Below are positions 1 to 45,270 of a stretch of DNA of 45,270 nt, in pieces. The translations under genes and the position numbers were made by a program. The number at the start of each line of letters is the position of its first letter. Positions within the stretch are counted from its first letter, which is position 1. Origin of the DNA: Lachnospiraceae bacterium (lineage in GTDB: Bacteria > Bacillota > Clostridia > Lachnospirales > Lachnospiraceae). The stretch covers positions 1 through 45,270 of the forward strand of contig JAGAJL010000025.1 of NCBI GenBank assembly GCA_017626095.1. Direction: 5' to 3'. The notes below the pieces were generated by a model. The model was not told the origin of the DNA. It searched no databases and saw only the letters and a list, made by a program, of their open reading frames with translations.

Positions 1-180
1 ACAAAAATAATGCCCGGTTTCAACTGTCTGAAGACGAAGTCTGAGTTTTGAAACCGGGCATTTAATAAATACTTTGTGAGCATGCCGCTTAGAAATGCCG
101 AAAACCGAAGTATGAAGCGGCAAAGATATATATTTTTGTAAAGGTGACTGCCATCCCGCAAAGATTGCGAACTTTGTGAG
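1..180. repeat. Family-A palindromic element, right half (window start)
   Basis: This is the core and right half of a large nested palindrome that recurs at about 12981, 21628, 27105 and 45096. The core stem has CCCGGTTT (from 13) facing AAACCGGG (51-58), with an AGAC-GAA-GTCT tip. The right half then carries the conserved CATGCCGCTTAG, GAAATGCC and CAAAGATATATA blocks. The left half is missing because the window begins inside the element. Bases 1-67 are identical to 45204-45270. No ORF lies in it. Confidence 0.8.
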
Positions 181-452
181 AAACGTGGCAGAGCGTCTGC
201 ATAATCGGTCTGCAAGCTCCATATATCGCGCTTTTCTGACTATGCATCGTGGAAACAAATCCGAAATTGAATAAAATTTTTCTAAAATGTCTAATATTAC
301 TCTTAATTTCATAGACATATTTCTAATAAAACATATATAATAATAATGCTGTTGGAGAATGATTAATCCCAACAGCATTTCCTAGTTATATCAAATAGAA
401 TATGGTATTTGTAATAGTTTCAAATATGCATATAATGATGGAAGGTGAAAAA
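181..452. other. Intergenic leader upstream of the histidine kinase
   Basis: No gene is visible here. The stretch after the repeat is AT-rich and holds a sigma-A-like promoter (312-341). It also holds an 11-bp stem-loop, AATGCTGTTGG (345-355) with CCAACAGCATT (369-379) and a 13-nt loop. No T-run follows the stem, so it is not an obvious terminator. It sits in the predicted 5' leader of the kinase mRNA and could be a regulator site or RNA structure. Confidence 0.6.
312..341 (+). promoter_or_regulatory. Putative sigma-A promoter of the two-component operon
   Basis: TAGACA (312-317, five of six against TTGACA), an 18-bp spacer and TATAAT (336-341). It lies 112 bp upstream of the kinase start, with the 345-379 stem-loop just downstream of the expected transcription start. 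Confidence 0.55.
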
Positions 453-12980: not shown

Positions 12981-13260
12981 TTTATTATTCGCAAATTCGC
13001 AACTTTAGGGACATAAGAGGTCATTCTTACAGAAATAAATATCTTTGTTCGCCGACTTTTACGAGGTTTTGTGTCTTTCTTAGCGGCATGGCGAACAAAA
13101 TGAATACCCGGTTTCAACTGTTCGAAGACGAAGTCTGAGTTTTGAAACCGGGTATTTAATAATATTTTGTGAGCATGCCGCTTAGAAAGACTAAAAACCG
13201 AAGTATGAGGCGACAAAGATATTTATTTCTGTAAGGATGACCGGAATCTCGCAAACGCAA
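12981..13260. repeat. Family-A palindromic element, full-length copy
   Basis: A nested imperfect palindrome with self-pairing arms 13019-13242. The left arm runs GGTCATTCTTACAG...ATCTTTG and the right arm CAAAGAT...CTGTAAGGATGACC, pairing at about 28 of 29 positions. Inside lie ACGAGGTTTTGTG/CCGAAG, CTTAGCGGCATG/CATGCCGCTTAG and the core ATACCCGG/CCGGGTAT with an AGAC-GAA-GTCT tip. A left extension, TTATTATTCGCAA...ACTTTAGGGACATA, is shared with the copy at 45096. It fills most of the 533-bp divergent gap between the 12451-12822 gene and cca. It contains no believable ORF. Confidence 0.85.
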
Positions 13261-21566: not shown

Positions 21567-21627
21567 ATTTTGCACTCTTTTTGGATTTGTGTTCATGGAA
21601 AGAATATAAATATAGCAAGTATTTTTA

Positions 21628-21761
21628 ACAGAAAATTATATATCTTTGTCGCCGTCTTTTACGAGGTTTTGTGCATTTCTTAGCGGCATAAGCGAACAAA
21701 ATAGAATGCTCGAAATGCTAAAAACCGAAGTACAAGGCGACAAAGATATATAATTTTCTGT
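21628..21761. repeat. Family-A palindromic element, short copy with deleted core
   Basis: The terminal arms (21628-21653 and 21736-21761) are perfect reverse complements over 26 bp, beginning ACAGAAAATTATATATCTTT. Inside are the ACGAGGTTTTGTG, GCATTTC and TTAGCGGCAT blocks of family A, with GCATTTC (21673) facing GAAATGC (21712). The CCGGTTTCAACTG core and its right-hand partner, including CATGCCGCTTAG, are missing, so this looks like an internal deletion. It lies between the divIC terminator and the spoIIE promoter. Confidence 0.85.
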
Positions 21762-27104: not shown

Positions 27105-27335
27105 TTTTTGGATTTGTATTTTCAATATATATCTTTGCCGCCTCATACTTCGGTTTCTAGTCTTTCTAAGCGGCATGCTCACAAAATATTATGAAATGAC
27201 CGGTTTCAAAACCAGACTTCGTCTTCGGACAGTTGAAACCGGTCATTATTTTGTTCGCTCATGCCGCTAAGAAAGACACGAAACCTTGTAAAAGTCGGCG
27301 GGCAAAGATATATATTGAAAATACAAATCCAAAAA
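27105..27335. repeat. Family-A palindromic element, inverted full copy
   Basis: Perfect reverse-complement arms of 35 bp (27105-27139 and 27301-27335), starting TTTTTGGATTTGTATTTTCA. Inside, in reverse orientation to the 12981 copy, are CGGTTTCTAG/CTTAGCGGCATG blocks and the core ATGACCGG/CCGGTCAT with the GTCT-TC-AGAC-type tip. The outer arm sequence differs from other copies but is matched by its own partner arm. It fills the gap between the ftsH terminator and the GH13 promoter. Confidence 0.87.
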
Positions 27336-44519: not shown

Positions 44520-45020
44520 ATGGAATTATGGGATATTTATGATAAAGATAAAAAAAGAACCGGTCGTACGATGAAGCGGAATGACTGGATTTTAAAGGAT
44601 GGGGAGTATCATCTTACCGTACTAGGTGTTGTCTGCAGACCGGATGGTAAGTATTTGATTACAAAGAGAGTGATGACCAAAGCGTGGGCTCCCGGACATT
44701 GGGAAGTATCCGGTGGAGCTGCTCAGGCAGGAGAGGAATCGTTAGCAGCGGCTATCCGTGAGGTAAAAGAAGAAACCGGATTGGATGTTTCCGGATGCAG
44801 GGATGCATATGAATTTACCTATCACAGAGAAAATCCCGGTGAGGGCGATAATTATTTTGTAGATGTATATCGTTTTGAACTGGATTTTGATGAGGCAGAT
44901 GTAAAGCCCCAGGAAGCGGAAACAGACGGATTTATGCTTGCGACGGCAGAAGAAATTGCAGAGCTTGGCCGGCAGGGAATATTTTTACATTATGACAGCA
45001 TTAAGCAGGTGTTTCGATAA
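44520..45020 (+). CDS. Nudix hydrolase (YfcD/IPP-isomerase-like)
   Basis: A Nudix-superfamily protein of 166 aa. The Nudix box GGAAQAGEESLAAAIREVKEETG (about 65-87) has the complete Gx5Ex7REUxEExG pattern for Mg2+ binding and hydrolysis of a nucleoside diphosphate-linked substrate. The N-terminus MELWDIYDKDKKRTGRTMKR and the ITKRVMTKAWAPGHWEVSGG segment resemble the YfcD/isopentenyl-diphosphate-isomerase-like group. The substrate is not predictable. AAGAGG lies just upstream of the ATG. It is the last gene before the terminal repeat. Confidence 0.92.
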   Translation: MELWDIYDKDKKRTGRTMKRNDWILKDGEYHLTVLGVVCRPDGKYLITKRVMTKAWAPGHWEVSGGAAQAGEESLAAAIREVKEETGLDVSGCRDAYEFTYHRENPGEGDNYFVDVYRFELDFDEADVKPQEAETDGFMLATAEEIAELGRQGIFLHYDSIKQVFR

Positions 45021-45095
45021 ATATGCTGTTAGTACGATATATGGGGTTTTTGACCTTAGATGCAGACTTTTATCTCTGCCATCGTTTCTCACTTT

Positions 45096-45270
45096 TTATT
45101 ATTCGCAACTTTGGGGACATAGCCAGTCTCCCAAACAAAAATTATATATCTTTGCCCGCGGAATTTAGCGAGGTTTTCTGGCATTTCTTAGCGGCATAAG
45201 CGAACAAAAATAATGCCCGGTTTCAACTGTCTGAAGACGAAGTCTGAGTTTTGAAACCGGGCATTTAATA
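45096..45270. repeat. Family-A palindromic element, left half (window end)
   Basis: Shares TTATTATTCGCAA..ACTTTGGGGACATA with the copy at 12981. It then holds ATTATATATCTTTG, AGCGAGGTTTTC, TTAGCGGCATAAGCG and the core ATGCCCGG/CCGGGCAT. The window ends inside the element. The last 67 bases repeat the first 67 exactly. Its outer part pairs better with the half at the window start (about 21 of 26) than with the other copies, but less well than the full copies pair with themselves. Confidence 0.8.

Follow-up and report, generated by a model that had tools for sequence, protein, structure and literature searches.

The window, by which we mean the whole 45,270-nucleotide stretch of DNA that was analysed (contig C44 of G000, a 2.74-Mb draft genome), carries nested palindromes whose outer arms differ between copies, yet each arm pairs with its own partner. 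The question raised by these loci is how such pairing is kept. The initial annotation named selection for a long hairpin and repeated arm-to-arm correction by template switching as alternative explanations, and regarded the family as unlike a MITE. We consider it reasonably likely that the palindromes are copies of a non-autonomous, MITE-like transposable element, present in three related Lachnospiraceae genomes, whose arms template-switch or recombine and thereby become homogenised while the core is inverted.

Copies in the window and their dispersal

The nested palindromes and all three core stems described earlier are present where they had been placed: ATGCCCGG/CCGGGCAT at the window ends, ATACCCGG/CCGGGTAT in the copy at 12981 and ATGACCGG/CCGGTCAT in the copy at 27105. 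The near-perfect pairing claimed for the outer arms was likewise recovered, at 97% of 30 nt for the first of the three internal copies and at 100% for the other two (21628-21653 with 21736-21761, and 27105-27139 with 27301-27335). The features of the window are as follows.

1-272, plus strand: long-form copy of which the contig end leaves only the right half, with its right terminal repeat near 250-272
12995-13256, plus strand: what we read as a truncated long form, located in a divergent intergenic region, with no outer terminal repeats seen there
13019-13048, plus strand: left outer arm of this copy, 97% complementary to 13213-13242
13039-13222, plus strand: core of this copy, ATATCTTTG to CAAAGATAT, with blocks that match the 186-column core model
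13213-13242, plus strand: right outer arm of this copy, partner of 13019-13048
21577-21595, plus strand: terminal repeat CTTTTTGGATTTGTGTTCA, with 2 mismatches to CTTTTCGGATTTGTGTTCC, probably the left end of the copy at 21628
21628-21761, plus strand: copy minus the inner hairpin of the core, arms pairing at 26 of 26 nt
27105-27335, minus strand: short-form copy with terminal repeats and its core on the minus strand, arms pairing at 35 of 35 nt, read from alignment with G003 and G008
45010-45270, plus strand: left half of a different long-form copy, cut by the contig end and overlapping the start of contig C22

The segments 1-180 and 45096-45270 had been taken as one copy. However, a 67-nt sequence common to both window ends also opens contig C18, the starts of C44 and C18 are identical over 141 nt, and 103 nt at the right end of the window recur at the start of C22. 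These repeats and overlaps indicate repeat-induced contig breaks, and the window ends are therefore two half-copies of different elements. A single circular element spanning the ends is ruled out by the same overlaps with C18 and C22. Near the right end, at 45006-45020, the stop codon of a NUDIX-domain open reading frame (44520-45020) lies within terminal-repeat-like sequence (GTGTTTCGATAA), and insertion of the element may have set the C terminus of this protein.

The internal sites vary among relatives. At 12981, the sister genome G008 carries a short remnant in place of the copy, and the outgroup G001 matches one flank only. In G003 (C27:5798-8435), ~2.6 kb separate the sequences that match either side of the site, far more than in G000. 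At 21628, G003 has the whole core, G000 has lost its inner hairpin, and G008 has no element. The 27105 core has the opposite orientation to its orthologue in G008 and the same orientation as that in G003, the cores are reciprocal best matches, and two both-arm changes in G000 are absent from both sisters. The outgroup carries no element at the 21628 and 27105 sites, where the gaps are ~40 nt. Rfam models searched against the window at the gathering threshold matched two tRNAs only, with no match over the elements.

The palindromes are a dispersed family that occupies dozens of places per genome in three related bacteria. A 19-nt core motif, allowing at most 3 mismatches, has 66 matches in G000, compared to 0 for the reversed pattern; a first-look tally gave 111-114 candidates in this genome, unconfirmed copy by copy. 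The repeat was found in 3 of 61 genomes searched (G000, G003 and G008), which are all draft assemblies of one genus, and was absent from the 6 other members of the genus that were searched. Across a collection of 84,980 species, an exact 23-mer turned up in only two Lachnospiraceae MAGs, in 46 stretches altogether; one of the two MAGs comes from dairy-cattle colon.

Anatomy and traits of a probable transposable element

The family takes three forms: long (~480 nt), short (~240 nt) and hairpin-only (~35 nt). All share a terminal repeat of about ACCCTTTTCGGATTTGTGTTCCC, and the terminal repeat has 84 matches in G000 (reversed control, 1). In short copies, the terminal repeat CTTTTCGGATTTGTGTTCCC directly adjoins the core, while long copies hold an extra section and a linker between the two; most short copies measure 234-236 nt from outer end to outer end, and the fullest long copies 474-480 nt. 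The core, modelled in 186 columns, is itself a hairpin with internal mismatches that are conserved across a 43-copy alignment. Within this alignment (A1), the conserved mismatches lie in core columns 27-100, where one-sided changes lean toward G-U over A-C, unlike those of the outer arms. The innermost arm bases (ATATCTTTG/CAAAGATAT) are among the most conserved.

Stand-alone hairpins consist of the terminal repeat only and account for 13 of 25 matches (7 in G000, 3 in G003 and 3 in G008); none was found in the 6 other genomes of the genus. Such ~35-nt units occur at L304, L307, L310, L319 and other loci, and the repeat at 21577-21595 of the window was noted alongside them. In some cases an exact 9-nt direct repeat accompanies the unit, such as TTGAATAAA at L319, and the repeats look as if the hairpin itself had moved. 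Two further observations concern individual loci. At L061 (G000:C24:75700-77200), the linker GTATCCCCGCCGCCATGGGAACTGCGC appears in both arms in exact mirror form, in this copy alone, and the orthologous site in G003 holds the short form. L139 and L164 (contigs C56 and C67 of G003) are apparently the same site on two contigs, perhaps redundant contigs in the bin.

The terminal repeats are present as paired ends in both short and long copies, as in a MITE, and lie outside the coordinates first given for the palindromes. Direct repeats of 9 nt, matching at 7 or more positions and lying at fixed offsets, border 15 of 61 deduplicated copies, compared to a shuffled mean of 5.24 and maximum of 12 (0 of 500 shuffles as high); the offsets were picked after inspection of the end distances, and the long copies have no excess at offset 3/4. 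These counts point to a probable 9-nt target duplication. Together, shared ends and probable duplication leave the view that the family is unlike a MITE unsupported. Moreover, 2 of 10 sister-site comparisons (L042 and L072) gave precise empty sites in G008, with a polarity that fits insertion or excision alike. The L058 site is nearly precise, and the remaining comparisons show remnants or imprecise junctions; L055, L067, L088, L092 and L065 were set aside as empty sites on account of such junctions.

The element was presumably moved in trans by a transposase, and the length of the duplication prompted a guess that this might be of ISLre2 type. A PF06782 profile search of G000 gave no match, but the control was also silent. 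Among the 30 of 84 terminal-repeat matches that were fetched, no transposase-sized element bounded by two ends was seen. Solitary terminal repeats were also considered as ends of an autonomous element, and the 12 loci shown proved to be partial copies, hairpin-only units or single ends.

Both-arm changes and inverted cores at orthologous sites

Around the elements, sequence identity to G000 is ~94% for both G003 and G008. We fetched 60 loci in G000, 50 element loci in G003 and 48 of 51 in G008; 4 of the 66 G000 motif matches, 3 of the 51 G008 matches and the window copy at 12981 stand outside the orthologue analysis. The set holds 123 full copies (44, 40 and 39 in G000, G003 and G008, respectively), and clustering by flanks yielded 32 groups in which at least two of the three genomes have full copies, after one cluster of 17 loci had been dropped in which the compared flanks still lay inside long copies. 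Seven of the 32 groups lacked usable arms, leaving 25 sites for the arm count.

Over 565 arm positions in 25 independent orthologue pairs, 497 are unchanged, 43 differ in one arm, 19 carry identical changes in both arms, 3 are shared mismatches and 3 are complex. If the arms changed independently, only 0.97 both-arm changes would be expected. Positions were counted only where the arms pair in both species, so that one-arm changes are underestimated, yet even a per-arm rate twice as high would increase the expected number only about fourfold, to a value far short of 19. The ratio of transitions to transversions is 11:8 for both-arm and 28:15 for one-arm changes. At L187, both arms lack two bases that are present in L050 and L174, and L146 combines a short left arm with a long right arm, whereas both arms are short in the orthologous copies L060 and L138. 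Arms also match their own partners better than the partners in other copies (0.927 versus 0.789 for short-form arms, 0.780 versus 0.486 for long-type arms).

The core (~185 nt) is inverted between the same flanks in one genome in 13 of the 32 groups, each of the three genomes being the odd one out at some site. For 8 of these groups, comparison with all 39-44 full cores per genome returns the inverted cores as reciprocal best matches, which indicates that those cores turned in place. Of the other five, three have ranks of 1-6, and L131/L195 and L141/L171 rank like unrelated copies; exchange with other copies may explain these five. Mean core identity is 0.954 for same-orientation orthologues (40 pairs), 0.946 for inverted ones (17 pairs) and 0.894 for non-orthologous cores. 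In selected reciprocal-best pairs, where the choice of best matches inflates the value for the core, core and flank identities are 0.981 and 0.939 for the same orientation and 0.966 and 0.942 for inverted cores. Cores more alike than their flanks would fit either constraint or homogenisation between copies.

The covariation check proposed at the outset was also run. In 43 full G000 copies, with two window copies excluded, 296 cells have changed on both sides, compared to 97.5 (sd 9.2) in shuffles, and 40 pairs covary, compared to 20.9 (0 of 500 shuffles as high); covariation in the outer helix partly reflects the inherited difference between short and long forms. The arms are thus conserved within copies and covary far above shuffles, and the structural claim withstood its refuting test.

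Of the two explanations first offered for this pairing, correction by template switching is favoured by the orthologous sites, whereas hairpin selection is less favoured, although the core shows a weak excess of G-U over A-C. Selection for a long RNA hairpin, acting in stability of mRNA 3′ ends, in termination or as a small RNA, would keep arms complementary through compensatory substitutions, and could call on the strong covariation and on the fold predicted for the 27105 copy, which is very stable (-119.5 kcal/mol, z -17.0). Structural tests by themselves would point to such selection. Among rare one-sided cells of the core, read on one strand, G-U exceeds A-C by 30 to 14 (p=0.02, one of several tests), as expected under an RNA role; this refined count was used because the totals over all cells (168 versus 48) include subfamily differences. 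The outer arms, however, are home to most both-side changes and have no such bias: rare one-sided cells number 15 G-U and 13 A-C, and mismatches comprise 39 G-U, 35 A-C and 36 others when read in core orientation, or 16, 18 and 18 when read on the strand of co-directional flanking frames. Eight of the 19 both-arm changes are transversions, and inversion is not predicted by such selection. Copies lie between co-directional (51), convergent (46) or divergent (16) open frames, taken as a crude proxy for genes, and core orientation shows no preference relative to the co-directional frames (27 same, 24 opposite). We therefore consider RNA selection unlikely as the general account and not required to explain the elements, although some RNA constraint may act on the core.

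The remaining alternatives concern DNA. Ectopic exchange among the many copies, rather than between arms, could swap both arms or a core at once, and would suit those orthologous sites where one species has the long form and another the short, with unrelated cores (L076 or L155 against L167, and L046 or L107 against L142). It seems to us quite unlikely as the main cause, given the reciprocal best cores in 8 inverted groups, the 12 of 19 both-arm changes that by our own tally fall in 7 groups with reciprocal best cores, and the copy-specific mirrored arms of L097 and L061, for which no donor was seen. Still less probable is a site-specific recombinase, comparable to those of phase-variable switches, that flips the core at the conserved ATATCTTTG/CAAAGATAT bases and keeps the arms similar. 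It would suit the high conservation of these innermost bases and the commonness of inversion in any of the three genomes, but does not account for both-arm changes well beyond those bases or for hybrid arms, and core orientation lacks preference relative to genes. We give equally little weight to a broader view of dozens of dispersed, often-inverting DNA switches per genome, driven by the hairpin or by an enzyme, in which inversion would vary within populations and alter expression of neighbours, and transposition would rebuild both arms from one strand. Assembly error in short-read metagenome bins is the least probable source of the inverted cores. All the genomes are drafts and G000 contigs break within these elements, but in three of the 8 groups with reciprocal best cores (L049/L186, L056b/L163/L184 and L111/L148) no exact inverted repeat in the stretch made up of the element plus 60 nt on each side is longer than 21 nt, a length too short to mislead an assembler that uses larger words, and inverted cores keep orthologue-level identity.

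Proposed arm exchange and comparison with known systems

Template switching is thus favoured on the basis of the both-arm transversions, the two-base loss at L187, inversion in place and the hybrid arms of L146. We propose that the whole element, being one long imperfect palindrome, exposes every inserted copy to DNA-level exchange between the arms of that copy, through polymerase template switching or through arm-to-arm recombination; either route would leave the same traces. One arm would template the other, with identical both-arm changes at orthologous sites as the outcome seen; the core would be turned around between the arms, leaving inverted cores with unchanged flanks; and inner hairpins could be lost, as at 21628. 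The polymerase step is one that we infer from these outcomes. Both signs of a template-switch hotspot are found, namely arm homogenisation (19 versus 0.97) and spacer inversion (13 of 32). Conversely, internal core mismatches persist in 43 copies, though frequent arm correction should erase them.

Arms that appear to be selected for pairing may therefore be a mere by-product of DNA copying. Covariation is commonly taken as proof of a selected RNA structure, and because strong covariation occurs here alongside inversion in place and both-arm transversions, the family can serve as a natural control against over-reading such claims. Its orthologous sites, tens of which are comparable, would also allow the frequency of arm copying and core inversion in bacteria to be measured.

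These elements are intergenic long palindromes, as are ERIC-type repeats. They resemble bacterial MITEs in being short and dispersed, with a shared terminal inverted repeat, a probable target duplication, no coding capacity noted and precise empty sites. They differ in that the whole element is palindromic, covariation is found between the arms of a copy, the core inverts in place, and the ends are common to three nested sizes. Among the few papers listed for Lachnospiraceae and miniature inverted repeats, titles and the beginnings of abstracts show no such family. REPINs have as a hallmark a GTAG or CGTC tag at the foot of the hairpin, and neither tag was found, reading by eye, in the 13 stand-alone hairpins. 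The likeness to REPINs (PMC3116915) lies in hairpin-forming mobile repeats, reported compensatory changes between arms and hairpin-only units; the present elements are longer and have 9-nt direct repeats.

For the mechanism, two reports provide precedents. Template switching between inverted repeats in yeast genes leads to arm homogenisation and spacer inversion (PMC8604942), and in rRNA and microRNA hairpins it can likewise yield compensatory changes in RNA stems and, rarely, loop inversions (PMC8794818). Those cases involve mostly short spacers or loops, whereas here the core is ~185 nt and each genome holds dozens of comparable sites. The mechanism is thus known elsewhere, and a bacterial family in which both outcomes are frequent across dozens of sites is, within the literature searched, new to us.
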